A DNA stretch of 64,000 bases from contig BBSY01000003.1 in assembly GCA_000974665.1 (NCBI GenBank), positions 124,001 to 188,000 of the forward strand, in the 5' to 3' direction. Under the pieces are notes generated by a model that made no database searches, had not been told where the DNA came from, and was given only the letters and a program-made list of their open reading frames with translations. Each line of letters opens with the position of its first letter. Within the stretch, counting starts at the first letter, position 1. The position numbers and the translations under genes are program-made. Positions 47,971-63,727 of the stretch are shown in pieces. Source of the stretch: an alpha proteobacterium U9-1i (GTDB taxonomy: Bacteria > Pseudomonadota > Alphaproteobacteria > Caulobacterales > Aquidulcibacteraceae).

Positions 47971-49551
47971 ATGGCCCAGACCACAGCGCAGAGCGCCTCC
48001 GATCACGACCACGTCCTGATCATCGATTTCGGCAGTCAGGTGACGCAGCTGATTGCGCGGCGGGTGCGCGAGAGCGGGGTCTATTGCGAAATCCATCCCT
48101 ACAACAAAGCTGGGGAGGTGCTCGCGGCGGGGTTCAATCCAAAGGCCGTGATCCTCTCGGGCGGTCCGGCGAGCGTCATTGAGGGCGAGAGCCCGCGCGC
48201 GCCGGATGAAGTGTTCAAGCTCGGCGTGCCGGTGCTGGCGATTTGCTACGGGCAGCAAACCATGGCCGTGCAGCTGGGCGGCGTTGTCGAAGGCGGGCAC
48301 GCGCGTGAGTTCGGCCGGGCGGACGTTGAGATATTGCGCGATAGCGCATTGTTCGAAGGCTTCTGGGAAGTCGGCGGCCGCTATCCGGTGTGGATGAGCC
48401 ACGGCGACCGGGTGACGAAGCTGCCGCAAGGCTTTGTCGTGGCGGCGACGAGCGAAAACGCGCCCTTCGCGATCGCGGTCGATGAGCAATACCGCTTCTA
48501 CAGCGTGATGTTTCATCCCGAAGTCGTGCACACGCCAGATGGCGCCAAGCTACTGCGCAACTTCACCCACAAAATCGCCGGTTGCCGCGGCGATTGGACC
48601 ATGGCGGCGTTCAAGGACGAAGCAATCGCCCGCATCCGTGCGCAAGTCGGCGATGGCACGGTGATTTGCGGCCTGTCGGGCGGCGTTGATTCAAGCGTGG
48701 CGGCGGTTTTGATCCACGAGGCGATCGGCGACAATCTGCATTGCGTGTTCGTGGATCACGGCCTGATGCGTGCGGGCGAGGCCGAGCAGGTCGTGTCGCT
48801 GTTTCGCGACCATTACAACATCCCGCTAATCCACGCCGACGAAAGCGAACGTTTCCTGGGCGCGCTCGAAGGCGTCGACGATCCGGAAGTGAAGCGCAAG
48901 ACCATCGGCAAATTGTTCATCGACGTGTTCGAGGAGAAGGCCAAAGCCATCGGCGGCGCGGCGTTCCTGGCGCAAGGCACGCTCTATCCTGACGTGATCG
49001 AAAGCGTGAGCGCCATCGGCGGCCCGTCGGTGACGATCAAATCGCACCACAATGTCGGCGGATTGCCTGAGCGCATGAACATGAAGCTGGTCGAGCCGCT
49101 GCGCGAATTGTTCAAGGATGAAGTGCGCGCGCTCGGGCGTGAGCTTGGCCTGCCGGAAAGCTTTATTGGCCGCCATCCGTTTCCGGGGCCGGGGCTGGCG
49201 ATCCGCGTGCCCGGCATGATCACGCGCGAGAAACTCGACATCTTGCGCCAAGCCGACCTGATCTATCTCGATGAAATTCGCAAGGCCGGGCTCTACGATC
49301 AGATCTGGCAAGCCTTCGCGGTGCTGTTGCCAGTGAAAACCGTGGGCGTCATGGGCGATGGGCGCACGTATGAATTTGTCTGCGCGCTCCGCGCCGTCAC
49401 CAGTTCAGACGGCATGACGGCGGACTTCTTTCCGTACTCGATGGATTTCCTCGGCCGCACCGCGACGCGCATCATCAACGAAGTTCGCGGCGTAAACCGC
49501 GTCGTCTACGACGTCACGTCAAAGCCGCCCGGCACGATCGAGTGGGAATGA
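47971..49551 (+). CDS. guaA: GMP synthase (glutamine-hydrolysing)
   Basis: GuaA aminates XMP to GMP. The 526 residues contain a class I glutamine amidotransferase (Cys92 in AICYGQQ; His/Glu in MFHPEV), the ATP-pyrophosphatase loop [10 protein letters not shown], and a C-terminal dimerisation domain ending [18 protein letters not shown]. The 3' end is complete and is followed at once by island DNA with an integrase. Its last codons are therefore the likely left attachment site. Confidence 0.97.
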
Positions 49552-49867
49552 TTCAGTAGGGTCCGGCGTCCTTCGCCGACATTCGCTGAATAGCCATAAA
49601 ACGACATAAAATCAAAAGAGTAATCTTCGAAGCCGATCGCCAAGGATCGGCTCTAAGCGGAAATACGTGACGGTGTTTTTGACGGTATCGCTTCGAGCGG
49701 GCACGCAGAGATTTGCCCATACCGTCAGGCGCGGAAATCCAAGCGTACCCGTGTGGTTTGCGCTACACGACTGAAATACATCGGAAAAACGTATAGCTTG
49801 ACGGTGTTTTGGCTGACGGTAAAAATGGACGGCAGAACCTGAGAAACTGCGCCAGAAGAGGCCGCCT
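49552..49867. promoter_or_regulatory. guaA-integrase junction with repeated TGACGGTR sites
   Basis: There is no gene in these 316 bp. The 8-mer TGACGGT(G/A) occurs at 49668-49675, 49680-49687, 49799-49806 and 49814-49821, and inverted at 49720-49727. A sixth copy lies at 49933-49940, just inside the integrase gene. The layout of two close pairs plus an inverted single copy fits integrase arm sites or a regulator of the integrase promoter. A perfect hairpin (AGCCGATC, loop GCCAAG, GATCGGCT) lies at 49631-49652. Confidence 0.65.
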
Positions 49868-51130
49868 GTGCTGACCGACCTTGCTCTCAAGAAGATGAAA
49901 CCAAAGGAAAAAATCTATAAGGTCGGAGACCGTGACGGTATGTACGCGCTGGTCGCCACTTCGGGGCTCATCACGTTCCGATACGACTATCGTTTCAACG
50001 GCCGGCGCGAGACGTTGACCATTGGCAAATACGCGCCCGACGCCGGCGGGCTGTCGCTGTCGGAGGCAAGAGGCAAGTGCGCGGAGGCGCGCCAGCTTCT
50101 GAGTGAAGGCCAGTCGCCGGCCATCAAGAAGCAGAAGGAAAAACGCAAGCTGGTCGAGGCCGACAGGTTCGGCCAGGTCGGTCTGCGCTATTTCAAGGAA
50201 GCGCGCATGGCAGAGAGCACGCGCGCCATGCGCCGGGCGATCTATGACCGCGACATCCATCCCGAATGGAAGAACCGCCTGCTGGCGGAGATCGGACCGG
50301 AGGATCTGCGCGTGCTCTGCGCACGGGTGAAAGATCGCGGCGCGCCAGCCACCGCCATCCATGTGCGCGACATCGTCAAACAGATCTATGGCTTCGCCAT
50401 CCTGCACGGCGAGAAGGTCTCCAATCCCGCCGACGAGGTGGGGCCGGCCTCGATCGCACAGTTCGAGGTGCGCGACCGGGCGCTGTCGCCGGGCGAAATC
50501 CGGATAATGCTGTCCTTGCTTGAGCGTATCGCGACCTTGCCGACGATCCGCCTCGGGCTGAAGCTGATCTTGCTCACCATGGTCCGCAAGGGCGAGCTTC
50601 AAGACGCTGTCTGGGACGAGGTCGAATTCGAGAATGCGGTCTGGTCGATCACCAAGGAGCGAATGAAGCGCAAGAAGCCGCACAATGTATATCTGTCGCG
50701 GCAGTCGCTCGACATCATGGTCGCGCTCAAGACCTGCGCTGGCAATTCACGCTATCTCTTGCCCTCGCGCTACGAGGCCAGTGAGCCGATGTCGCGGGCG
50801 ACGTTCAATCGCGTTACCACCGCGATCGCCGAACTCGCCAAAAAGGAAAATCTTCCGCTGGCGCCGTTCACGGTTCACGATCTGCGGCGGACCGGCTCAA
50901 CGCTTCTGAACGAGGCGGGCTTCAACAGTGACTGGATCGAGAAGTGCCTGGCGCACGAGGACAATCGCTCCTCGCGCGGCGTCTACAACAAGGCCGAATA
51001 TGAGCCCCATCGCCGGCACATGCTGCAGGAATGGGCGAATATGGTCGACGCCTGGACGCGGGGCGAGAAGTACACGCCAACTCTGACCCCGCCGACATCG
51101 ACCCTCGCAATCCACGATCCTAACTTCTGA
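49868..51130 (+). CDS. int: Tyrosine-type site-specific integrase (P4-like, DUF4102)
   Basis: This is the island integrase, 420 residues. An N-terminal DUF4102 arm-binding domain (about 1-85) and a core-binding domain (about 95-190) precede the catalytic domain. The active-site residues are Arg240 (LLTMVRKGEL), His337 and Arg340 (HDLRRTG), His363 (LAHED) and the nucleophile Tyr373 (VYNKAEY), all intact. The start is GTG with GAAGAGG upstream. It lies directly behind guaA, in the same orientation, as expected for an element using the guaA 3' end as its target. Confidence 0.93.
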   Translation: MLTDLALKKMKPKEKIYKVGDRDGMYALVATSGLITFRYDYRFNGRRETLTIGKYAPDAGGLSLSEARGKCAEARQLLSEGQSPAIKKQKEKRKLVEADRFGQVGLRYFKEARMAESTRAMRRAIYDRDIHPEWKNRLLAEIGPEDLRVLCARVKDRGAPATAIHVRDIVKQIYGFAILHGEKVSNPADEVGPASIAQFEVRDRALSPGEIRIMLSLLERIATLPTIRLGLKLILLTMVRKGELQDAVWDEVEFENAVWSITKERMKRKKPHNVYLSRQSLDIMVALKTCAGNSRYLLPSRYEASEPMSRATFNRVTTAIAELAKKENLPLAPFTVHDLRRTGSTLLNEAGFNSDWIEKCLAHEDNRSSRGVYNKAEYEPHRRHMLQEWANMVDAWTRGEKYTPTLTPPTSTLAIHDPNF

Positions 51131-52002: not shown

Positions 52003-53214
52003 TTAGCGATCCAGGCCAGGCGGCAGCTTCAGCGCCTTCGACATTTGCCGCGCTGGATCGGTGAGGCTGCGGGTGAGGTCTTGCGTGCGCGAGCGCACCA
52101 GCGCCTTGCGGATGTCGAGGTGGAGTTCCATCGCCTTGAGGCGGTCGCGCCATTCCGGCTCGAACTGGAAGATGTTGCGTCCAACTTCGGTAGCGAGGCC
52201 AAGGCGCTTGAGTTCTTGCGCCCGCGCTTTCAGCGCATCGGTCACTTCCGGCGACCGATCCGGCGCCTGTAGGTGGGCGAGGCGAATGCGGCCATGCGCA
52301 TCGAGTTGGCCCTCGATCATGCGGTCGAGCCGACTTGGGCGATGCGCGCGCGCTTCCCGCGCCAGCGCGAGACGGGCGTCGTCCCTGCCGCGCGGACCAA
52401 GGCGTTCTGTGGCGATGTCCTGCGCCGCTGATCGGAAGCCATGGCTTACATACTCGCGGGGGATGACGAGATCGCGCCCGTCCTCGTGGCGACCGCGCAG
52501 GATAATGTGCGTATGCGGGTTGTCGGTGTCCCAATGATCGACCGCGATCCAGGTCAGCCGCGTTCCGAGTGCGATCTCCGCCCGCCGCATCACCTCGCGG
52601 GTGTAGCTCTTGAGATCGCCAAGCCGGCCGCCGTTCTCTGCTGACAGGATGAGCCGGAAGTGGCGCCGGTCCTCCCGAGCCCAGGCCGCCGCACGTGCGC
52701 CGCCATCCACGCTGTCGTCCAGCGCATCGTAGAAGACGGAGCGTTCGGCGCTGCGCTGCAGGTAGCGCGCATGGGCGTTCGCCGGCGCATCAGCTTCGCG
52801 CCCGCCACTGACGGGCGCGTCCTCGCCGGGCAATGCCGGCGATGGCGCCTTGGCGGCCGCGTCCCGCGCCACATAGCGGGCGTGCGCGCCGAGGGCCGCG
52901 CCGCCGCCGCCAGCGTGGCCGAAATAGTGGATCTTCACGATCGCGCGTTGCCGCGGGTCGAACTTGAATTTGCCGGCTTTGCCCAACCCTTTCGCGGTTT
53001 TGCGCGACGAGCCGATGCGCTTTTGCAGTTGAGAAGACAGCGCCGGCGTAGCGCTTCCGCGACCGCGTCCTTCGTGGCGGCCGGTGAGACTTTCCGCATC
53101 GATGGGACGCGCAATGCGCAAGCGTGAGCCGGGAGAGAACGTCTCGCCGCGCATCGCGTCGCGCAGCAATTTACTGAATCGAAAGGCCGGCGCGGTGATC
53201 GTTGTGGGGGTCAT
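52003..53214 (-). CDS. Relaxase/mobilisation nuclease (VirD2/RlxS-like), short form
   Basis: This DNA-nicking relaxase has 403 residues. The metal-binding motif III is HWDTDNPHTHI with His227, His234 and His236. Candidate nucleophile tyrosines are Tyr114 and Tyr151, each in an HARY context, and Tyr162. RlxS/DUF3363 relaxases are usually well over 550 residues, so this one is a short form or lost its C-terminal domain. A 161-bp gap with palindromes separates it from the S26 peptidase gene. Confidence 0.8.
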   Translation of the reverse strand: MTPTTITAPAFRFSKLLRDAMRGETFSPGSRLRIARPIDAESLTGRHEGRGRGSATPALSSQLQKRIGSSRKTAKGLGKAGKFKFDPRQRAIVKIHYFGHAGGGGAALGAHARYVARDAAAKAPSPALPGEDAPVSGGREADAPANAHARYLQRSAERSVFYDALDDSVDGGARAAAWAREDRRHFRLILSAENGGRLGDLKSYTREVMRRAEIALGTRLTWIAVDHWDTDNPHTHIILRGRHEDGRDLVIPREYVSHGFRSAAQDIATERLGPRGRDDARLALAREARAHRPSRLDRMIEGQLDAHGRIRLAHLQAPDRSPEVTDALKARAQELKRLGLATEVGRNIFQFEPEWRDRLKAMELHLDIRKALVRSRTQDLTRSLTDPARQMSKALKLPPGLDR

Positions 53215-53869: not shown

Positions 53870-54298
53870 ACGCTCAGCAAGGGGGCGGTTCTGTCACGCG
53901 CAAGCGGATGCTCCTTCGAGGCTCACCCGTGAACCGAGGCGCGTCTTCTTAAGGGGCGGGAGGGCGGGTGTTGCGATAGGGATCGAAGCCCGAAGGGCCG
54001 AGACCCAAATGGGGCTCGGTTCACAAGAGCCCGGCCCGGCGGCGGAGCCGCCGGGATCGCCCAAACCACACAACAGGCGGAACGGCTGACGCGGCAACGC
54101 TGGAACTTCAAGTGCGAACGTATCCGACGGCGCGCGGCGGCGGGGTGGGCGGGTGGGAGCATCGCTTGGCCTCATGCAGAAGCCTCGGGGCTTACTCACA
54201 GGGCCAATCAGATGGCTTCGGCGCCGAAAGGGTGGAGGGGGTTGAGGCGGGCCGTTACACAGGGTTGTAGCTGGCGACAGATTCGGCGGGGGCGCTAT
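53870..54298. other. GC-rich noncoding region between mobilisation and restriction genes
   Basis: There is no credible gene in these 429 bp; the open frames are Pro/Arg-rich and lack start signals. A perfect hairpin, CCCGGCGGC-GGA-GCCGCCGGG, lies at 54035-54055. The region separates divergently read units and must hold both promoters. It is also a place to look for an oriT, though I see no known nic consensus. Confidence 0.5.
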
Positions 54299-57200
54299 TT
54301 GACCACTTTGCGGGACTTGCTCATTTCGTACCGGGAACGGGCAAGTTCCGAGCGCGAGAAGGGCGACTATTTCGAGCGGCTGGTCCGTATCTGGCTGCAG
54401 CATGCGCCAACCCAGCAGGGCCAGTTTCTGCGGGTTCTGTCCTACGCCGACTGGGCGGCCGAGAACCGCATCTCACAGCAGGACACCGGAATTGATCTCG
54501 TCGCGCAGCTCGCCGACAGCCCCGACGATTGGTGCGCCGTTCAGTGCAAGTTCTATGCTGGCGGCTATCGCATCCAGAAAGCCGACATCGACAGCTTCTT
54601 TACAGCGTCCGGGAAGCGCCCGTTCACGCGCCGCCTCATCGTCGACAGCACCGGGGCGCCGTGGAGCGAGCACGCCGCGGAAGCGCTAGTCGGCCAGACC
54701 ATTCCTTGTAACCGCATCGGCCTTGCCGATTTCGAAGAGAGCGGCATCGATTGGGACGCTTTCGCCAAGAGTGGGGAAGTTCACGTCACCAAGAAGGCGC
54801 CGAAGCCGCACCAGCTTGATGCGCTGCGCGAGGTGCAAAAGGGGTTGAGTGACGCCGATCGCGGCAAGCTCATCATGGCGTGCGGCACGGGTAAGACCTA
54901 CACCGCGCTCCAGATCGCACAGGCCATGGCGGGCCGTGGCGGGCGCGTGCTTTTCCTCGTGCCGTCTCTTTCGCTGATGTCGCAATCGATCCGCGAATGG
55001 TCGGTCGATACGGCGATCAACCTGCGCTCGTTTGCGGTGTGCTCCGACGTGCAGGTCGGCGTGCGGAGAGCGAAACAGGACGATCTGGCCGACATCAGCG
55101 CTACCGATCTCGAAATCCCCGCGACCACGCTCGCCAATGTGCTCGCTGCGAAAGCCAGCAAGCCCGATCCCGAGCGAATGACGGTCGTGTTCTCGACCTA
55201 TCACTCGATCCAAGCGGTGGCTGACGCGCAAGCAAAGTTCGGGCTGCCCGCGTTCGATCTCATTATCTGCGACGAGGCGCATCGCACGACTGGCGCCACG
55301 CTCGCGGGTGAGGAAGAAAGCAATTTCGTCAAGGTTCACGACGCCGACTTCATCAAGGGCAAGAAGCGCCTCTACATGACGGCGACGCCGCGCATCTTTG
55401 GTGAGGCGGTGCAGCAGGTCGCGGATGAGAAAGGCGCGATGCTCGCGTCCATGGACGACGAGAGCCTCTACGGCCAGGAACTCTTTACCCGCAATTTCTC
55501 CTGGGCGGTCCAGAACGGCTTGCTGACCGATTATAAGGTCATCGTGCTGGCGGTGGATGAAGCCTCGCCAGACGTGCAGCGGCTCCTGCGCGATGGCGGC
55601 AATGAGCTGAAGCTCGATGACGCGACCCGGATTGTCGGTTGTTACAAGGCGCTGACGAAGACCGACTTGAAGCCTGATACAGACGCTGATCCCGCGCCCA
55701 TGAAACGCGCGTTGGCGTTCTGCAAGACGATTAAGGCTTCGCAGCTCTTCGAGGAGCAATTCGCGCGGGTTTCGGAAGAGTGGCGCGATGGGCTGGAGTC
55801 AGATCGCGCAGCGGCGCTGCCGCCGCTTACGCCGCAAGTACGCCACGTCGATGGCAGCTTCAGCGCCAATATGCGCAATGAGCGTCTGGCCTGGCTGAAG
55901 GATGAGGCCGGCGCCGAGCATTGCCGCATTCTGACCAATGCGCGCTGCCTTTCGGAGGGCGTGGACGTTCCCGCGCTCGACGCCATCCTCTTCCTGCATC
56001 CGCGCAAGTCGCAGATCGATGTGGTGCAGTCGGTGGGCCGCGTCATGCGCCGCGCCGAAGGCAAGAAGATGGGCTATGTCATCCTGCCCATCGGCGTCCC
56101 CGCCGGCATGGCGCCCGAACAAGCGCTTAACGACAATGAGCGCTACAAGGTCGTGTGGCAGATCCTGAACGCGCTGCGCGCGCATGACGATCGCCTCGAC
56201 GCAACCATCAACAAGATCGATCTCGGCGTCGATCCCGGCGACCGGATCGAGATCATCGCCGTCTCCAATGATTTTCCCGTCCGCGCCAAGGCGGCCAAAG
56301 CCAATCTCGATATTGGCGGCGGCGTCGCGGTTGATGGCGACGATTTTGCGACCTCGACGCCGCGTGTTCCGAATGGGCCGGCGCAACTTGCCTTCGACTT
56401 CCCGGAATACGCCAAGGCGATCATGGCGAAGATCGTCAAGAAGTGCGGCACCCGGACCTATTGGGAGAATTGGGCGGGCGATGTTGCACGCATCGCTGAA
56501 ATCCACATCACGCGCATCAAGGCGGCGGTGGAGCGGGCTGGTTCGGAAGAGAAGGCGGCGTTCGACACATTCCTGGAAGAGATTAGGGATGATCTGAACG
56601 ACTCCATCACGACGGACGAAGCCATTGAGATGCTGGCGCAGCATCTCATCACCAAGCCAGTTTTCGACGCGCTGTTTGAGGGCTACGCGTTCGCCGCGAA
56701 CAATCCGGTCAGCCGCGCGCTTGATCAAGTTCTCTCGGTGCTGGAGCGCCAGAACCTCGATAAGGAAACCGAGAGCCTCGAAAAATTCTACAACAGCGTC
56801 CGTATCCGCGCGGCGGGGATCGCCAGCGCTACGGCGAAGCAGAAGATCGTAGTCGAACTTTACGACACCTTCTTCAAGACCGCGTTCCCCAGGCTCGCCC
56901 AGCGCCTGGGCATTGTTTACACGCCGGTCGAAGTTGTCGATTTCATCATCAAGTCGGTGGACGAGGTGCTGCGCGAGGAGTTCGGGCAGAGCCTGTCATC
57001 CGAAGGCGTTCACATTATCGATCCGTTCGTCGGGACGGGCACGTTCATTACGCGGCTGCTGCAATTGGGCCTCATCCAACCCGAAGACCTGCCGCGCAAG
57101 TTTTCCTCGGAAATTCACGCCAACGAGATCGTGCTGCTCGCCTATTACATCGCCGCGATCAATATCGAGGCGACCTATCACGAAATGACCGGCGAGTATG

Positions 57201-59206
57201 CGCCATTCCCCGGCATCTGCCTTACCGACACCTTCCAGCTCTATGAGAAGGAAGACCTCATCTCTGGTATGATGGCGGACAATTCCAGCCGTCGAAAGCG
57301 GCAGAAGACTCTTCCGATCAAGGTCATCCTTGGCAATCCTCCCTATTCGATTGGGCAGACGAGTGAGGACGACAACGCGGCCAACGTCAGTTATCCGCAC
57401 TTGGACGAACGCATCGCTTCCACGTATGCCAGTGCTTCGTCGGCAAAGCTCACTCGCGGTCTATATGATAGCTATGTCCGCGCGATCCGGTGGGGCTCTG
57501 ACCGTATTCAGGAGACTGGCGGAGTGCTTGCGTTCGTAACGAACGCTGGTTGGATCGACGCCAATTCCGCCGATGGCATGCGCAAATGCGTCGCCGATGA
57601 GTTTACCAGGGTGGATGTTTTCCACCTTCGTGGAAATCAGCGCACTCAAGGGGAACAGTCGAGGCGTGAGGGTGGGAAGATATTCGGACAGGGGAGTCGC
57701 GCGCCCGTGGCGGTTACTCTGCTTACCAAGAATGGCAAATCCTCAGGGCCAGCGCGGATTCGACTGCACGATATTGGTGACAATCTGAGTCGCGAGGAGA
57801 AGCTTGATCGTGTCACAAAGTTTGGGAGCGTAGGTGGCATCACCAAGAAGGGTGCCTGGCTACCGATCGCGCCTGATGAGCATGGCGATTGGATCGGGCA
57901 GCGCGACAAGAGTTTCGATCTGCTATTTCCGGTCGGTGACAAGGACAAGAAGTCCGATGCGCCGCTCTTCGCAAATTTCTCTTTGGGGGTGGTAACCAAT
58001 CGCGATGCTTGGTGCGTGAATGCCTCGCGGAGCGAGTTGCTGCGCAACGTGGGCGGACTCATCTCTACTTTTGAGCAAGAGCGTCATCGCTTTGCATCTC
58101 TTGGAAAGGCGTTCGCAAGTGCGGCGGCCCGTGATGACTTTGTTGATGACTTCGTGGTCGTCGATTCAAAGCGGATAAGCTGGACGCACAATCTTAAGGG
58201 TGACCTCGCCACGAACAAGCAGTTGACGCTCGCGCCCGAGAAGGCGTCTACCTGTATGTATCGCCCGTTCAACCGGGCTTGGCTCTACTACGACCGCCGT
58301 CTCAACGAGCGCGTCTATCAAATGCCACGCATCTTCCCGACAGGTGCGCATGAGAATTTGGTCATAGGGCTTACCGGCGGCACCAACCGAGGCGAGTTTA
58401 CGACACTCATGACCTCGGCGCTTCCAAGCCTTCACATGGCTGACTCCAACGGTGCTCAGTATTTACCGCGATATGTCTATGTGGATGTCGAGGCCAGGGA
58501 CGGGTTGTTTGCGGCTGACGGGGGAGGTCAAGAGCGCCGTGATGCCATCACCGATGCTGGGCTGAAGCATTTTGCGAGGGCGTACCCCAGCGAAACAATC
58601 ACGAAGGACGATCTGTTCTATTTCGTCTATGGCATCCTGCACTCGCCTGAGTATCGCGCGCGCTACGCTGACAATCTGCGCCGTCAGCTTCCCCGCATGC
58701 CGATCTTGAAGCGCGCAGAGGACTTCTGGGCCTTCGTTGAAGCTGGTCGAAAACTTGGCGATCTCCACGTCAACTATGAAACGGTCGAGCCATACCCGGT
58801 AGCCATCGGTGAAGGCGATCTGCGCCTTGCCAATATCGACGATCCTGTCTCGTATTTCCGCGTCGAGAAGATGAAGTTCGCCGGCAAGCGCCCGAAGCTC
58901 GATAAGACCACGGTGATCTACAATCCGCGGATCACGATCACGAACATCCCGCTTGCGGCCTACGAATATGTCGTCAACGGCAAGCCGGCGCTCGAATGGG
59001 TGATGGAGCGCCAGTGCGTCTCCACCGATCCCGCCAGCGGTATCGTCAACGACGCCAACGCCTACGCCAACGAAACCGTAGGCGATCCGCGCTACCCGTT
59101 CGATCTCTTCTGCCGGATCATCACAGTCAGTCTGGAAACGATGAAGATCGTCAAAGCGCTGCCGGCACTGGATATTCGCGAGAATGCCGAAGCGACGCCA
59201 GCTTAG
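54299..59206 (+). CDS. Type ISP restriction-modification enzyme (single-chain helicase-nuclease-methyltransferase)
   Basis: This 1635-residue protein has the layout of LlaBIII/LlaGI-type enzymes. An Mrr-like nuclease domain has Asp66 in GIDLVAQ and Gln82-x-Lys84 in AVQCKFY. An SF2 helicase follows, with Walker A ACGTGKT (Lys199), DEAH at 325-328 and QSVGRVMRRAEG. Next come a helical coupler and an N6-adenine methyltransferase, with SAM motif DPFVGTG (908-914) and catalytic NPPY (1013-1016). A target-recognition domain lies at the C-terminus. I start it at TTG 54299 because GGCGGGGG precedes it and TTLRDLL is the usual N-terminus. The frame is open 29 codons further upstream. Confidence 0.9.
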   Translation: MTTLRDLLISYRERASSEREKGDYFERLVRIWLQHAPTQQGQFLRVLSYADWAAENRISQQDTGIDLVAQLADSPDDWCAVQCKFYAGGYRIQKADIDSFFTASGKRPFTRRLIVDSTGAPWSEHAAEALVGQTIPCNRIGLADFEESGIDWDAFAKSGEVHVTKKAPKPHQLDALREVQKGLSDADRGKLIMACGTGKTYTALQIAQAMAGRGGRVLFLVPSLSLMSQSIREWSVDTAINLRSFAVCSDVQVGVRRAKQDDLADISATDLEIPATTLANVLAAKASKPDPERMTVVFSTYHSIQAVADAQAKFGLPAFDLIICDEAHRTTGATLAGEEESNFVKVHDADFIKGKKRLYMTATPRIFGEAVQQVADEKGAMLASMDDESLYGQELFTRNFSWAVQNGLLTDYKVIVLAVDEASPDVQRLLRDGGNELKLDDATRIVGCYKALTKTDLKPDTDADPAPMKRALAFCKTIKASQLFEEQFARVSEEWRDGLESDRAAALPPLTPQVRHVDGSFSANMRNERLAWLKDEAGAEHCRILTNARCLSEGVDVPALDAILFLHPRKSQIDVVQSVGRVMRRAEGKKMGYVILPIGVPAGMAPEQALNDNERYKVVWQILNALRAHDDRLDATINKIDLGVDPGDRIEIIAVSNDFPVRAKAAKANLDIGGGVAVDGDDFATSTPRVPNGPAQLAFDFPEYAKAIMAKIVKKCGTRTYWENWAGDVARIAEIHITRIKAAVERAGSEEKAAFDTFLEEIRDDLNDSITTDEAIEMLAQHLITKPVFDALFEGYAFAANNPVSRALDQVLSVLERQNLDKETESLEKFYNSVRIRAAGIASATAKQKIVVELYDTFFKTAFPRLAQRLGIVYTPVEVVDFIIKSVDEVLREEFGQSLSSEGVHIIDPFVGTGTFITRLLQLGLIQPEDLPRKFSSEIHANEIVLLAYYIAAINIEATYHEMTGEYAPFPGICLTDTFQLYEKEDLISGMMADNSSRRKRQKTLPIKVILGNPPYSIGQTSEDDNAANVSYPHLDERIASTYASASSAKLTRGLYDSYVRAIRWGSDRIQETGGVLAFVTNAGWIDANSADGMRKCVADEFTRVDVFHLRGNQRTQGEQSRREGGKIFGQGSRAPVAVTLLTKNGKSSGPARIRLHDIGDNLSREEKLDRVTKFGSVGGITKKGAWLPIAPDEHGDWIGQRDKSFDLLFPVGDKDKKSDAPLFANFSLGVVTNRDAWCVNASRSELLRNVGGLISTFEQERHRFASLGKAFASAAARDDFVDDFVVVDSKRISWTHNLKGDLATNKQLTLAPEKASTCMYRPFNRAWLYYDRRLNERVYQMPRIFPTGAHENLVIGLTGGTNRGEFTTLMTSALPSLHMADSNGAQYLPRYVYVDVEARDGLFAADGGGQERRDAITDAGLKHFARAYPSETITKDDLFYFVYGILHSPEYRARYADNLRRQLPRMPILKRAEDFWAFVEAGRKLGDLHVNYETVEPYPVAIGEGDLRLANIDDPVSYFRVEKMKFAGKRPKLDKTTVIYNPRITITNIPLAAYEYVVNGKPALEWVMERQCVSTDPASGIVNDANAYANETVGDPRYPFDLFCRIITVSLETMKIVKALPALDIRENAEATPA

Positions 59207-59604
59207 CCGCCGAAAACCTTACGAAGCCAATTCCAGAAACGGCGCCAGAAGCCGCGCTCGCGCTCTTGCGCGGCGTAGTGGTCGCGGCGGCGCTGCTCCT
59301 CCGCATTGCGCCCCGCGAGGACTTGGGCCTCGGACCATCCTTTGGCCCAATGAATCTGACCGTCACTGATCACATAGTGCGATCGGCAGGGCAGTTGCCA
59401 ATTGCCGATAGAAGGGCGGAGGCTCGGGCGTCCATGGCGCTCTGTAAAGCTCCATTCGGCCGGACCAAGCGGGGTGACGACCTTTGCGCCGCATCCGCAC
59501 GCGCACAGATGCGCTGCGACAGCGTATTCCAGTGAGACGTAGAGCACGCCCGGCGCGAGGTCGCGCGGAACGTAGGTAACATGCTGGAGCTTCAGTTCGT
59601 TCAC
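59203..59604 (-). CDS. DUF6527-family protein, last gene of the Ubl cassette
   Basis: This 133-residue protein has a compact, probably zinc-binding core: CACGC (Cys34, Cys36, Cys38), WSF, PSIGNWQLPCRSHY (Cys73, His76) and IHWAKGWS. The C-terminal 35 residues are basic and helical, with many Trp and Arg. This core is that of the DUF6527 family, which travels with prokaryotic ubiquitin-like and E1 genes. A peptidase or zinc-dependent accessory role is possible. It overlaps the E1 gene by 4 bp and is convergent with the restriction enzyme gene. Confidence 0.8.
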   Translation of the reverse strand: MNELKLQHVTYVPRDLAPGVLYVSLEYAVAAHLCACGCGAKVVTPLGPAEWSFTERHGRPSLRPSIGNWQLPCRSHYVISDGQIHWAKGWSEAQVLAGRNAEEQRRRDHYAAQERERGFWRRFWNWLRKVFGG

Positions 59605-60773
59605 TCGAAAGCCTCTGTGAACAGCTTCAGCCCGCCAAGTTCAAAGAGCATGTGATGCGCCCCGTTGTCATTGGCGTAGAAGCGGCGAATTTGTTTGTAG
59701 CGAATGACCGCCAGGGCCGCGTTTAAGGCGTTCAGTTCGGCGATTTGGATGTTCTGACGATAGACGTCGTTCGGATCATCCGACATTTCCGCCAGGCCCA
59801 TTTGTTGGACCCTTCGACCATCTGCTGTCGAATAGTAGGTGGCGCGCATCATGCCAGTGAGGGCGTCCGCATTGCGGGTAAGGCCCATCCCGACATCGAT
59901 GAATGGAATGCCTAGGCCCAGCAGAAGCTCGAATAACTCGGCGCGCGCCGAGCCTTTGTCCACGCACACGAACGCGAACGTCACGCCCTCGAAATCGCCG
60001 GCGCAGGAGCGATCAATGTATTTGCGGGTAAGGACGAGCCCTTCGCGAAAGTTCGCATAGCGCGATGCGTAGACGTCCGCCTTCCCCTGGCTCAGTTCGC
60101 CTTCGTCGAGCCTTCCCGGCGATCGATAGGCATTGTGGACATGATAGGCGTCGCCATCGAACCCGCGGATCTGTTTAACGGGCGTTTTGGCGAAGAAATC
60201 CAAGACGTAGGCGCCAGTTCCGCCGAGGCCGATGATGGCGATGACTTCGTCCTTAAAGCGCGCCGCCAGATCGCCAATCTCAGCCCGGCTGGTCAGCGTG
60301 TCATGAAACTTAAAGACCGAGTCCTTCACCGCTTCGTTGTCGACGCGGAAGGTTAGCGGATTGGCGCAGTGGAGCTCGATCGCAGGGCCGGAAATCATGC
60401 CGACGTAATGTTCAATCTTATCGAAGAAGTCGGCAAACCCGTTGCTGGGCTTGTTGGAGAATGTGCGCTGCACGACCACGTCTGCATGGGCGAGGGTAAG
60501 GCTCGTCGGGCCTCCGGCCAAATTAGGGATCGGCTGACCGTTCAGCCCGTAGGGCGGTGAGCCGGCGAAGAACACTTGATGGTCCTGCTGTTTGACGCGG
60601 ACCTTGTCGATGAATTCGAGCTTCGTCACGAGGGCGCCGATCTGCAGCGTCTTCTGGCTGTCGAGATAGGGAATGTCGCGCACGACGAGATGCGCGCTGT
60701 CGAGCCGCAGCGCGTATCCCTTTTCCATCAGGCGACGGATGTCGTCGTTATGATTGGCCAGTTCGATTAACAC
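59601..60773 (-). CDS. E1-like ThiF-family adenylyltransferase with N-terminal DUF6791 domain
   Basis: This 390-residue protein should adenylate the C-terminus of the neighbouring ubiquitin-like protein. The DUF6791-type domain is at about 1-160. The ThiF/E1 Rossmann domain follows, with IGLGGTG (181-187), FDGD (205-208), the conserved Asn and Arg of VHNAYRSPG, and GKADVYASRYANF. Cysteines are few (about 136, 257 and 270), and no typical E1 catalytic-Cys loop or CxxC zinc pairs are seen. The GTG start lies inside the Ubl gene (26-bp overlap), which implies coupled translation. Confidence 0.87.
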   Translation of the reverse strand: MLIELANHNDDIRRLMEKGYALRLDSAHLVVRDIPYLDSQKTLQIGALVTKLEFIDKVRVKQQDHQVFFAGSPPYGLNGQPIPNLAGGPTSLTLAHADVVVQRTFSNKPSNGFADFFDKIEHYVGMISGPAIELHCANPLTFRVDNEAVKDSVFKFHDTLTSRAEIGDLAARFKDEVIAIIGLGGTGAYVLDFFAKTPVKQIRGFDGDAYHVHNAYRSPGRLDEGELSQGKADVYASRYANFREGLVLTRKYIDRSCAGDFEGVTFAFVCVDKGSARAELFELLLGLGIPFIDVGMGLTRNADALTGMMRATYYSTADGRRVQQMGLAEMSDDPNDVYRQNIQIAELNALNAALAVIRYKQIRRFYANDNGAHHMLFELGGLKLFTEAFE

Positions 60774-61011
60774 GGAAGACCATTCCTTCTTTTGCTTTGA
60801 CCGTGCCGCCGGGGGCCAAGATGCCTTCCGGCTTGTCGCCGTGGCCGCGCGTGAAAGTGACGGAATAGGTGATTTCCGGGTGCTGCGCGTAGTCGGGATA
60901 GGCCAGCGTCACGACTTCCGCGTAGGTTAGAATTTCCTTCTTCGGCACCTCATGGGGCGTGCCGTCCACGATGATCGTGATGGTCTTGTCCTTGTCTTCC
61001 TGCTTGCTCAT
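60748..61011 (-). CDS. Ubiquitin-like protein (single multiubiquitin-type domain)
   Basis: This 87-residue beta-grasp protein begins ITIIVDGTPHEVPKKEILTYAEVV and runs to VKAKEGMVFRVNRTGQS. It is recognisable as a single copy of the bacterial multiubiquitin domain. The C-terminus does not end in Gly-Gly, so it needs trimming, uses another residue, or works without classical conjugation. ATG 61011 follows GGAGG. It lies between the SinR-like gene (35-bp gap) and the E1 gene (overlap). Confidence 0.85.
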   Translation of the reverse strand: MSKQEDKDKTITIIVDGTPHEVPKKEILTYAEVVTLAYPDYAQHPEITYSVTFTRGHGDKPEGILAPGGTVKAKEGMVFRVNRTGQS

Positions 61012-61046
61012 GCGAGCCTCCATTAAGAGTTGCTTTGGGCGTGCCG

Positions 61047-61325
61047 TTAGGCGGCCATCTTCACTTGGCGCGCGTTGATCCACTCCCAGGCTTTTTGCGG
61101 AAGCCAGCCTTGGTATTCGCGCGTCACGCCGATCACGAGGACGAAGTCGCCGGTATCGACGTGCGGGGCCAGGCGCGCCCAGACCCCATTGGCGTCCAAA
61201 GACGAATCAACCAACCAGGTTGATCCGAGAAAATGCCACCACGAGCCGCAGCTCTTGATGGCCTCATAAAGACCCGCGTAGTTCTGGCCGGGGCGCTTCA
61301 GGTCGTAGTTGATCGCGTAGATCAA
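61047..61325 (-). CDS. SinR-family (Cas2/VapD-like fold) small protein
   Basis: This 92-residue protein begins IYAINYDLKRPGQNYAGLYEAI and contains GSWWHFLGSTWLV and GWLPQKAWEWIN. It fits the small 'SinR' proteins that share the ferredoxin-like fold of Cas2. It may be a nuclease or nucleic-acid-binding subunit. The start is TTG with GGGAG upstream. It is the first gene of the minus-strand Ubl cassette; there is no CRISPR array nearby. Confidence 0.75.
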   Translation of the reverse strand: MIYAINYDLKRPGQNYAGLYEAIKSCGSWWHFLGSTWLVDSSLDANGVWARLAPHVDTGDFVLVIGVTREYQGWLPQKAWEWINARQVKMAA

Positions 61326-61453
61326 TGTCGGTCTCCCGTCCGGCCAACGAAGCCGATACTTACCTATGCGGACGAGGTGTCGGATGCGGACATTGGCTGC
61401 CTATGTCCGCGTTTCGCGATCCTTCCGCATAGGAGTCCGAGGAGATAACCCGT
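61326..61453. promoter_or_regulatory. Divergent promoter region of the Ubl cassette and sigma/ImmA genes
   Basis: This 128-bp gap between divergent starts holds ordered motifs. ATGCGGAC occurs at 61366-61373 and again at 61384-61391, 18 bp apart. GTCCGC (inverse) is at 61405-61410. CCTATGCGG (61363-61371) and CCGCATAGG (61425-61433) form a perfect 9-bp inverted repeat. A shared regulator or sigma-dependent promoter pair is likely. Confidence 0.6.
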
Positions 61454-62038
61454 GTGAGTCTGAGCCAGGCCGCCACCACACGCAGCCGGGATGAGGTCGC
61501 CGCCGCGATCCGCGCCTTCACGCCTGCCGATTGGGCCAGGTTGAAGCGGGTCGCGGCGAAGTATGCGTTTGCACGTCCTGTTAGCCCCGAAGATCTGATG
61601 CAGGAGGCGTTTATGCGGGCGCTCGATACACGCGTGTGCCCCTCCGACATAGACGTGGTGAAGTTTCTGGCGGAGATCATCCGCAGCGTGGCCGACGGCG
61701 AGGCCGAGAAGATTGAGCACAAAGCGAAGCTGGTGCCGATCGCCAATACCGGCGACCCGGACGATTTGGTCTATGACATCGCTGACGGGGCAGCCAATGC
61801 GGAGGCGCGCCTGATCGAGGCGCAGCACGCCGAGCGCTGCATTGCCGCTCATGCCGGCCTCGTTGCGCTCTTCGATGATGATCCGACAGCACAACTCATT
61901 TTGGAAGGAATGATGGATGACATGGCGGGCGAGGAACTGCGTGAGCTGACGGGCCTCGACAAGGTGGCGTATGACAGCAAACGCAAAGCCATCCGCCGCA
62001 AAATTACCAAGCACTATCCCAATGGATGGAAGCCATGA
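61454..62038 (+). CDS. Sigma-70-like (ECF-type) RNA polymerase sigma factor
   Basis: This 194-residue protein has a region-2-like helix set (VSPEDLMQEAFMRAL, about 43-57) and a region-4-like helix-turn-helix at the C-terminus (LRELTGLDKVAYDSKRKAIRRKI). The layout is that of small ECF sigma factors. The GTG start follows GAGGAGA. It is the first gene of a plus-strand trio that ends with an ImmA/IrrE protease and is divergent from the Ubl cassette. Confidence 0.78.
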   Translation: MSLSQAATTRSRDEVAAAIRAFTPADWARLKRVAAKYAFARPVSPEDLMQEAFMRALDTRVCPSDIDVVKFLAEIIRSVADGEAEKIEHKAKLVPIANTGDPDDLVYDIADGAANAEARLIEAQHAERCIAAHAGLVALFDDDPTAQLILEGMMDDMAGEELRELTGLDKVAYDSKRKAIRRKITKHYPNGWKP

Positions 62039-62475
62039 CCGGGAAAGGCGACAAAGAGCGCATTGCGCTAAGCCGATTGGCAAATGCTCTTACGGACGAC
62101 ATCTTGAATGCCTCGGATGAAGACATTCTGGCTGAACTACAAGACGCTGGAGGAGATCCGGCGAAGAATGCCGACGATATGAGGGCGTTGTTCGAGAAGA
62201 CGGTCTTGCTGGCCAACAAGAAGCGATTAAGCGCGGCAAAGGCTGGCGCGGCATCCGTGCGGGAAGTGTTTGCGCCGCCGGTTTCGTCTGCAGTCGATAT
62301 TGGGGCTGCTAGAGCACGTCTTCGAAAGATCATTGAGACGCCGGGCGGAGCGCACAAAGTTACTTTAGCCGCGCGCAAAGAAAGCGAGATGTCTGACTCC
62401 GACGTGATGGGGATGCTCGATGATCTGGTCGAACTCGGCATTCTGTCGCGACCGAACGACGCCGAGAGCGACTGA
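62026..62475 (+). CDS. Hypothetical protein between sigma factor and ImmA/IrrE genes
   Basis: This 149-residue soluble, helical, highly charged protein has no recognised domain. It overlaps the sigma gene by 13 bp (an ATG at 62035 is an alternative) and ends 5 bp before the protease gene. By position it could be the protease's substrate, an anti-sigma factor or an antitoxin-like partner. Confidence 0.65.
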   Translation: MEAMTGKGDKERIALSRLANALTDDILNASDEDILAELQDAGGDPAKNADDMRALFEKTVLLANKKRLSAAKAGAASVREVFAPPVSSAVDIGAARARLRKIIETPGGAHKVTLAARKESEMSDSDVMGMLDDLVELGILSRPNDAESD

Positions 62476-62480
62476 TCGCA

Positions 62481-63236
62481 ATGTCACCTGCGGAGCGACT
62501 GCTGCAAGAATTGGGCGTGACGGACCCCAAGGAAATCGATTTGGAGGCGATAGCATTCCACGTCAAAGCACGGGTCCGCTACCGCGCGCTGGAAGGATGC
62601 GAGGCGCGAATTGTCGGCAATGAGCGCGAGGCGATCATTACTGTAAACTCTGCCAGTTCGGCGCGGCGCCAAAGATTTTCCATTGCCCACGAATTGGGCC
62701 ATTGGCACCATGACCGTGGGAAGTGCCTTGCGTGCCGCTTGGAGGACTACCGTCCCAGTGAAACGCGCTCGCCGGAGCGGGTCGCTGACGGCTACGCCGC
62801 CGATTTGTTGATGCCGTACTATCTATTTCGGCCGCTGGCCCGAGAGATCGGGAAGCCGAACTTCAAAACCGTAGCGGCGCTGGCCGAAATATTCAAAGCA
62901 AGCAAAGTCGCGACAGCCATTCGGCTGGTGGAGAGCAATCAGGCGCCAACCATTCTTGTTTGTCATGGGTCGAATGGCCGTAAGTGGTTCACGCGGGCAC
63001 AGAGCGTGCCGAAGAAATGGTTTCCGCAGGATAGCTTGCACAGCGACAGCTATGCCTTCGGGATTCAGTTCGGAAACAGCTCGGATGATGCGACGCCGCA
63101 CAAAATCGGCGCTGATGCTTGGTTTGATCGCCGCGATGCAGATCGCTTTGAGGTGTTCGAGCAAACGATACGGATGAGCGCCCAGGAGACGCTTACCCTG
63201 TTGCAGATTAACAATGGAAAGATGCTCGAAGACTGA
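62481..63236 (+). CDS. ImmA/IrrE-family metallo-endopeptidase
   Basis: This 251-residue zinc protease has HELGHWHH at about residues 70-77 and a downstream Glu in ERVADGYAADLLMP as third ligand. ImmA/IrrE proteins cleave repressors when triggered by damage or phage. There is no N-terminal helix-turn-helix, so the DNA-binding partner is separate, possibly the small protein or sigma factor upstream. The C-terminal 120 residues are an unrecognised sensor-like region. Confidence 0.87.
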   Translation: MSPAERLLQELGVTDPKEIDLEAIAFHVKARVRYRALEGCEARIVGNEREAIITVNSASSARRQRFSIAHELGHWHHDRGKCLACRLEDYRPSETRSPERVADGYAADLLMPYYLFRPLAREIGKPNFKTVAALAEIFKASKVATAIRLVESNQAPTILVCHGSNGRKWFTRAQSVPKKWFPQDSLHSDSYAFGIQFGNSSDDATPHKIGADAWFDRRDADRFEVFEQTIRMSAQETLTLLQINNGKMLED

Positions 63237-63261: not shown

Positions 63262-63531
63262 CTAGCGTCGATGTGGGCAAGCGCGCGGGCTCAGAAGCGA
63301 TCCCTCTGCGACAAAAACATAGTCGCGTTTGTTCGTGGCAAAAATTCTTCCGCTCGCCGTGTTCGGGTTGGAACGAAGAGTGCCGTAGATACGAACTCGT
63401 GATCGGCACGTCTGGCAATATGCCGTCTTATCGTCCAGCACGCCGTTCCAGCGACCGATGGTGTGCCCTTTGTCGGTCAGAAGGGATTCGTACCGCTTGC
63501 GCAGCGCTAGATGCTCGGGAAAGTCTGCCAT
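63262..63531 (-). CDS. Small hypothetical protein with CxxC motif
   Basis: This 89-residue basic protein has a CQTC pair in the middle and one further Cys near the end. I start it at ATG 63531, 8 bp after the upstream gene's stop. No family recognised. Confidence 0.5.
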   Translation of the reverse strand: MADFPEHLALRKRYESLLTDKGHTIGRWNGVLDDKTAYCQTCRSRVRIYGTLRSNPNTASGRIFATNKRDYVFVAEGSLLSPRACPHRR

Positions 63532-63538
63532 CTGGGCC

Positions 63539-63727
63539 TTAGCAGACGCCGCTCTTGCGCAGTTCCCATCCGCGGTAGACGACAAATGCGTCGTCCGCAC
63601 GGATCGCGCATGGTGTTGGCGTCAAGCCGGTCTCATTCAAGAAGGCGGACCACAAATCGCTTTCCAGAAAGGCACCATCAGCACCACCATCGTCGATCAT
63701 TTGGTCTACAATGTTGCGCGCAGTCAT
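63539..63727 (-). CDS. Small hypothetical protein
   Basis: This 62-residue acidic protein is the likely first gene of a two-gene minus-strand unit with the CxxC protein. Nothing in it is recognisable. Confidence 0.5.
   Translation of the reverse strand: MTARNIVDQMIDDGGADGAFLESDLWSAFLNETGLTPTPCAIRADDAFVVYRGWELRKSGVC

Follow-up and report, generated by a model that had tools for sequence, protein, structure and literature searches.

A candidate sigma-factor variant of CapH+CapP-type immune controllers facing a ubiquitin-like operon in an alphaproteobacterium

Introduction

The portable controllers of bacterial immune operons CapW, CapH+CapP and CapK+CapS act via repressors, according to the accessible part of PMC13373217. 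Here we describe a locus of the alphaproteobacterium U9-1i (assembly GCA_000974665.1, contig BBSY01000003.1, positions 124,001 to 188,000; this whole stretch of 64,000 nt is called the window, and coordinates are positions in it) in which genes for an extracytoplasmic function (ECF)-type sigma factor, a small middle protein and a CapP-type metallopeptidase, together termed the trio, face a divergent operon across a shared 128-bp gap. This operon encodes a 92-aa protein, a ubiquitin-like protein (Ubl), an E1-like adenylating enzyme and a DUF6527 protein, the last three forming the payload. The best reading of these sequences is that the trio represents a new sigma-based variant of the CapH+CapP-type portable immune controllers, working most like the CalpL/CalpT/CalpS system.

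Activation by single-stranded DNA (ssDNA) has been reported for CapP and for PprI (PMC13373217, PMC10904395), and CapW or CapH+CapP is found in 219 of 544 Bub operons (PMC13373217). As in CapH+CapP (PMC13373217), the trio combines a CapP-type peptidase with a small partner beside an immune operon, with the same kinds of payload; the adjacent immune operon is seen for relatives of the trio, and the immune role of the window's own payload is predicted. It differs in that a sigma factor is added, that no helix-turn-helix (HTH) is seen in the small partner, and that activation from a private promoter is proposed here, as against the lifting of repression there. By analogy, the nearest mechanism is that of CalpL/CalpT/CalpS, in which a protease, an anti-sigma factor and an ECF sigma factor are wired to defence (PMC11417357). 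There, the protease is a Lon-SAVED enzyme activated by cyclic tetraadenylate (cA4) in a type III CRISPR context (PMC11417357), whereas here an M78 peptidase takes its place, the controller appears portable across cyclic oligonucleotide-based antiphage signalling (CBASS), Ubl, Pycsar-like and restriction payloads, and its putative private promoters form a mirrored pair; none of the trio genes, the payload genes or the neighbouring type ISP gene received a type III CRISPR assignment. CapK+CapS is likewise a portable, damage-responsive controller ahead of Bub, CBASS and other operons, but consists of an HTH-STAS-GHKL kinase and a STAS-winged-HTH repressor, with no sigma gene described for it in the accessible text, where sigma factors come up only with CapK/CapS and VapK/VapS (PMC13373217). 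In PprI/IrrE-DdrO, an ssDNA-activated M78-family protease cleaves a transcription regulator, much as proposed here, but there a DNA-binding repressor controls a damage regulon that spans the genome (PMC10904395). Bub operons share with the present payload the presence of Ubl and E1 in one operon (PMC13373217); they differ from it in that it has a single Ubl, a DUF6791-type E1 and DUF6527, and no separate E2 or deubiquitinase (DUB) gene among the four ORFs (open reading frames) of the divergent operon. A literature search by title and abstract opening, partial in its coverage, found no sigma factor acting with CapP.

We propose that the plus-strand trio would control defence operons as a portable, sigma-based unit. 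At rest, the middle protein would keep the ECF-type sigma factor inactive; upon damage or infection the CapP-type peptidase would be activated, most likely by ssDNA, and would cut the middle protein near a C-terminal TLAAR sequence. Once freed, the sigma factor would guide RNA polymerase to the gap, where one of two mirror-image promoters would drive the trio itself, giving positive feedback, and the other the divergent 92-aa, Ubl, E1 and DUF6527 genes. To this model as a whole, namely a sigma-based switch, an inhibitory middle protein, CapP cleavage and use of both promoters, we assign a probability of about 0.72.

Results

Products of the trio

An earlier note on this DNA had listed seven genes around a 128-bp gap; all seven ORFs lie where it placed them and the gap is exact (61326-61453), an arrangement far beyond chance, while the mirrored promoter pair described below was absent from that note. 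Seven ORFs and the gap were studied, and Pfam families were assigned to five of the seven, including the sigma gene with a match below the cut-off. The sigma gene (61454..62038, plus strand) matches Sigma70_r2 with an E value of 3.3e-4 and 20.8 bits (Pfam cut-off, 24). The sigma alignment comprises 44 of the 45 full sigma proteins, and the sigma profile matches solved ECF sigma factors, the best being 6jcy (E 3.4e-5). An AlphaFold2 (AF2) model of the window protein (mean predicted local distance difference test score (pLDDT) 86, predicted template modelling score (pTM) 0.49) shows two helical domains, sigma-2 at residues ~9-89 and sigma-4 at ~116-187, and a Foldseek search with this model returned, at ranks 1-26, sigma factors or transcription-complex chains as judged by title. 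The gene product is thus predicted to contain the sigma-2 and sigma-4 domains of an ECF sigma factor.

The middle gene (62026..62475, plus strand) has no Pfam family. The third gene (62481..63236, plus strand) encodes a protein with the sequence HELGHWHH, a Pfam match at E 5.3e-17 and a PADLOC capP match at E 5.8e-64, and is predicted to be a CapP-type M78 (ImmA/IrrE) metallopeptidase; the peptidase profile matches CapP of PDB 7t5t (E 4.8e-20) and HELGH is invariant in the 30 aligned sequences, taken from 49 peptidases.

Conservation of the trio

A peptidase search of genome contigs gave 50 loci (L numbers below). CapP is preceded by a sigma homologue in 45 and by a middle homologue in 48, always in the same order. 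Of the 45 sigma genes, that of L021 is split into two frames and that of L037 is truncated. Among the five other loci, L003, L033 and L035 are interrupted by the end of the contig, L041 has a sigma remnant of only 41 residues, and L011 (4847-7314) has two adjoining CapP-like ORFs without sigma and middle genes. Three copies of the trio, with two different -10 boxes, are present in Sphingomonas yabuuchiae NS355 (L042, L043 and L051).

The sigma search of 72,556 plasmid records identified 20 records, 14 of which were read; the six left out (five from Cereibacter sphaeroides and one from Bradyrhizobium barranii) had the same identity and scores as ones that were read. Sigma, middle and CapP genes follow in order in 11 of these 14, and CapP was not found in the 14.5-kb stretch of L109, L111 or L112, the strain of L111 having a CapP relative on another plasmid. 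The laboratory strain Cereibacter sphaeroides 2.4.1 carries the trio on its plasmid pDE (L102), accompanied by the 92-aa gene and a CBASS operon with nucleotidyltransferase, E2 and SAVED genes; the sigma, middle and 92-aa genes there are annotated as hypothetical. Across 385 genomes of the class, a strict CapP profile (E 1e-30 or better) found two, the window's own and G323, both beside a strict sigma; strict sigma matches (E below 1e-15) occur in four, of which G361 (L096) and G035 (L097) are without CapP. L093, L094 and part of L096 and L097 were judged by profile only. On these comparisons the sigma/middle/CapP trio is a conserved module. Carriage of CapP by phages was considered and rejected, as 3 of 50,697 records matched, each with 33% identity over 46% of the query.

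Mirrored promoter-like elements in the gap

The gap contains two promoter-like elements of the form TGTCCG-N15-CCGCATAGG, which head outward, one on the minus strand towards the payload operon (61363..61392) and its mirror image on the plus strand towards the sigma gene and thus the controller's own operon (61404..61433). The 4.05-Mb genome holds exactly two exact copies of this pattern, both in the gap; with the same spacing there are no one-mismatch copies and 16 two-mismatch copies, against 4 for a reversed-pattern control allowing up to two mismatches.

Equivalent regions were compared for 45 loci including the window. L095 was added, L037 (truncated sigma) and L021 (split sigma) were left out, and L003, L011, L033, L035 and L041 had no usable sigma gene. 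An exact CGGAC...GTCCG pair no more than 44 bases apart occurs in 38 of the 45 regions (shuffled sequences: mean 1.07, maximum 6, 200 rounds), and a pair with one mismatch in 43 (shuffles: mean 16.5, maximum 25). For the plasmid set, where the sigma starts of L112 and L115 are estimates, the pair is exact in 8 of 14 regions, has one mismatch in 5, with a left arm in L111 that is implausible as a partner, and is missing from L107; shuffles gave the exact pair with a mean of 0.26 and a maximum of 3 in 500 rounds.

The -35-like box is near-constant across loci and the -10-like box varies among them, with CCGCATAG, CGAGCTA, GTCCGCTTTATAG, GTCGGCATTATG and GTCCGTATAGG among its forms. Within a locus the left and right -10 boxes agree, at 7.7 of 9 positions compared with 6.0 when permuted (0 of 10,000 permutations reached this value; 43 loci), and the agreement holds for the 16 loci with sigma identity under 40%. 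It holds as well for the 32 loci that offer no choice of pair (0 of 20,000), including 12 loci under 40%. In a search over distances of 12-21, a -10 core was located in 55 of 64 arms, and in 54 of these it stands 17-18 from TGTCCG; the two -35 boxes, by contrast, are 8 to 32 apart, depending on the locus. This fixed spacing within arms and variable gap between them suit two independent promoters better than one rigid palindromic operator, which is accordingly disfavoured. That one private sigma factor would read both promoters of the gap is well supported by these patterns, and the earlier note's idea of a dedicated sigma factor that turns on its own operon as well as the divergent one receives strong sequence support from the mirrored promoter pair, whose arms agree locus by locus and which has no further exact copy in the genome.

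Exchange of payloads and controllers

A payload class was given, directly or via clustering with a labelled member, to 34 of 46 trio loci (the 45 sigma-bearing loci plus the window). CBASS payloads with a cGAS/DncV-like nucleotidyltransferase (CD-NTase) account for 16 of the 46 (L004, L008, L012, L013, L016, L017, L019, L020, L023, L025, L028, L031, L032, L036, L037 and L044), with HORMA and TRIP13 in L025, L028 and L032 and NucC in L028 and L032. The Ubl-E1-DUF6527 class accounts for five (the window, L002, L010, L018 and, with multi-Ubl and E2, L024). Further payloads are E1/JAB with patatin (L026, L027, L029, L030), DUF2604 with an E2-C/ThiF fusion (L014, L038), Pycsar-like (L034, L046), subtilase (L049, L051) and, in single loci, type I restriction (L022), GmrSD with an ATPase (L007) and, weakly, DUF3800 (L005). 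A Bil-like operon (PADLOC BilD 8.6e-18 and BilB 3.3e-6; Pfam JAB) lies opposite the trio in G323. Plasmid payloads, by annotation, include CBASS in L102, L108 and L113, multiubiquitin-ThiF in L109, L110 and L114, E1-patatin in L107 and an S8 peptidase in L111.

Seen from the payload, DUF6791, the E1 N-terminal domain, is found in 7 of the 385 class genomes, where the order of the Ubl, E1 and DUF6527 genes never changes, and the trio stands beside this operon in one of the seven, the window's own. In four others (L090-L093) the Ubl operon faces a CapP-like peptidase without a sigma factor, with an XRE-HTH partner of the peptidase in L090, L091 and L092; in L089 and L094 sigma, middle and CapP were all missing by profile. 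These distributions indicate that payload and controller have been exchanged independently in evolution, and a seven-gene system specific to Ubl was rejected, since payloads vary among trio loci.

The middle protein

The AF2 model of the window's middle protein consists of extended helices (pLDDT 82, pTM 0.38). Its C-terminal part contains an A-x-R motif, usually AAR and within TLAAR in the window, that is invariant in the 47 aligned proteins (of 48). Counted as letters anywhere in the protein, as distinct from the aligned position, AAR is present in 47 of the 48 genome-set proteins, the exception being L022, and in 12 of 12 further middle proteins adjoining CapP. Among plasmid loci without CapP, the protein of L109 weakly matches the middle C-terminal part and reads ISMAFKSR at the motif position, that of L112 weakly matches only the N-terminal part and ends before the motif, and the middle-like protein of L111 is truncated and also ends before it; these three matches score 14-19 bits. 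The change or absence of A-x-R where CapP is missing gives weak support to a role of the tail in serving CapP. We consider the proteolytic step plausible and propose that the middle protein is likely an anti-sigma factor.

The layouts of the loci without CapP in the stretch differ. In L109 (7566-9486), the sigma gene and the middle-like gene with the changed motif are followed by one for a 478-aa protein that has no PADLOC match and whose N-terminus, we presume, resembles proteasome-like N-terminal nucleophile (Ntn) hydrolases; it is perhaps another protease replacing CapP. In L112 (7432-8548), the sigma relative is followed by an 81-aa ORF, the one weakly like the middle N-terminal part, in L097 (8498-9541) by a gene for a protein of 347 aa that matches only marginally, and in L096 (from 7616) by a weak middle-like ORF that has been kept after sigma.

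Discussion

Alternative explanations

Mirrored repeats could also be operators of a repressor, the middle protein being a derived CapH whose cleavage by CapP lifts repression and the sigma factor a helper. Palindromic operators, too, yield matched arms, and the PADLOC capH model matches 16 of 47 middle proteins weakly (best 1.9e-8; 1.6e-5 for the window). This model matches the XRE proteins of L090-L092 at 1.2e-29 (L090) to 1.5e-10, and we therefore take it to be an HTH model; neither Pfam, applied to the window's member, nor the AF2 model shows an HTH in the middle protein, and in a reverse test a middle-protein profile, in a set of six sequences, missed two XRE proteins resembling CapH (E values of 0.11 and 0.35). 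The identification of the middle protein as a CapH with an HTH is thus not supported by Pfam, the model or the reverse profile, and the weak PADLOC match stands unexplained. The 8-32 bp between arms, with their fixed internal spacing, also speaks against such operators, as does the lack of the exact pair in the divergent gap of the sigma-less CapP loci L090-L093 (pairs occur elsewhere in the 16-kb stretches of L090 and L093). We regard this explanation as improbable. The same low standing falls to a scheme that keeps the sigma-driven promoters but makes the middle protein a co-activator or chaperone, or lets CapP act on the sigma factor itself: no structural evidence marks the middle protein as an anti-sigma factor, but the A-x-R motif goes with CapP, and weak middle-like ORFs directly follow sigma in the CapP-less L096, L109, L111 and L112, as an inhibitor would need. 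The earlier note held that the two halves of the locus would be chance neighbours in a defence island if the trio were rarely found next to Ubl-E1-DUF6527. That rarity was indeed found, the Ubl payload being one of many (5 of 46 trio loci, 1 of 7 DUF6791 genomes), but chance does not follow from it, because the trio behaves as a portable controller that repeatedly faces defence-type operons of many kinds; the promoter pair, with arms that agree inside each locus and no other exact copy in the genome, argues in the same direction, and we hold coincidence to be very improbable.

Several observations weigh against the sigma-switch model that we prefer. Pfam scores of the sigma proteins are weak (of 44 members, 18 have a recognised region 2 and one a recognised region 4), and Foldseek matches of the sigma model include none at E 0.001. 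Foldseek with the middle-protein model found no fold match (best E 1.7), and the term anti-sigma is drawn from position, size and weak retention beside sigma. The 50-locus sample is biased towards near relatives of the window's CapP, and 12 of the 46 trio loci are without a defence-labelled payload. L036 and L107 lack the motif and L095 has a diverged one. The first test of -10 agreement picked pairs partly by arm similarity, a choice that the 32-locus test removes, and matched arms could stem from recent duplication of one arm. Between loci, -10 similarity correlates with sigma identity at 0.46 and 0.45 for the two halves of the protein and with CapP identity at 0.51; the -10 box tracks sigma no better than CapP, so that its similarity between loci may reflect common descent as much as co-evolution with sigma, and a link of -10 type to the sigma-2 half specifically, which was also sought, was not found.

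Should the sigma-switch model be right, the trio would work by activation from a private promoter, uniting the CapP damage sensor with sigma/anti-sigma logic of the Calp type. It would account for the shared control of otherwise unrelated defence operons and would predict when the Ubl-E1-DUF6527 operon is made; the locus-matched promoters are candidate orthogonal sigma/promoter pairs. More tentatively, at somewhat less than even odds, the trios may form a mobile family of insulated sigma switches, in which each -10 box co-evolves with its own sigma factor and copies coexist without cross-talk, in which case any defence operon landing behind one would gain damage control and positive feedback.

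The divergent operon

The first gene of the divergent operon (61047..61325, minus strand), called SinR/Cas2-like in the earlier note, has no Pfam or NCBIfam match and a best PDB-sequence E value of 0.11, so that this label is not supported. Its 92-aa product is conserved, with a mean column identity of 70% over nine sequences. The gene precedes different payloads in the window, L002, L004-L009, L015 and L102-L105, with a remnant in L010, and may be part of the controller because it is kept ahead of them.

All three payload genes lie on the minus strand. The single Ubl (60748..61083; Multi_ubiq E 6e-16) probably starts at 61011, where the ORF of its close relative in L002 begins. Its C-terminus reads ...GQS, without Gly-Gly; the last residue is Ser in 9 and Ala in 1 of 10 aligned sequences, none of which ends in Gly-Gly. 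The DUF6791-ThiF E1-like enzyme (59601..60773; PF20590 E 2.1e-44, ThiF 1.3e-7, NCBIfam NF004803 605 bits) has GxGGxG and the D/N/R/K/D residues invariant among 10 aligned sequences, and no cysteine is invariant among them. In the DUF6527 protein (59203..59604; PF20137 E 4.5e-25), C34, C38, C73 and H76 are invariant in 14 aligned sequences and likely form a zinc site. An E1 without an invariant Cys, a Ubl ending in Ser and the CCCH set of DUF6527 point to unusual Ubl chemistry, and one may speculate about a route that does not involve a thioester. The payload probably serves to tag proteins in anti-phage defence or under stress.

Genomic surroundings

A tyrosine integrase gene lies right after guaA (47971-51130, plus strand), followed by a relaxase-like gene with a weak match (52003-53214, minus strand); the two suggest that the cassette probably lies within a mobile island that entered at guaA. 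No exact repeat of at least 14 bases, as would mark a guaA-end attachment site, was found from 49,861 to 40 kb past the window. A type ISP restriction-modification enzyme of 1664 aa (54212-59206, plus strand) converges on the DUF6527 gene with a 4-base overlap. At the other end, downstream of CapP, a small ORF (63262-63600, minus strand) has a sub-threshold match to a GRF-like zinc ribbon (E 0.011).

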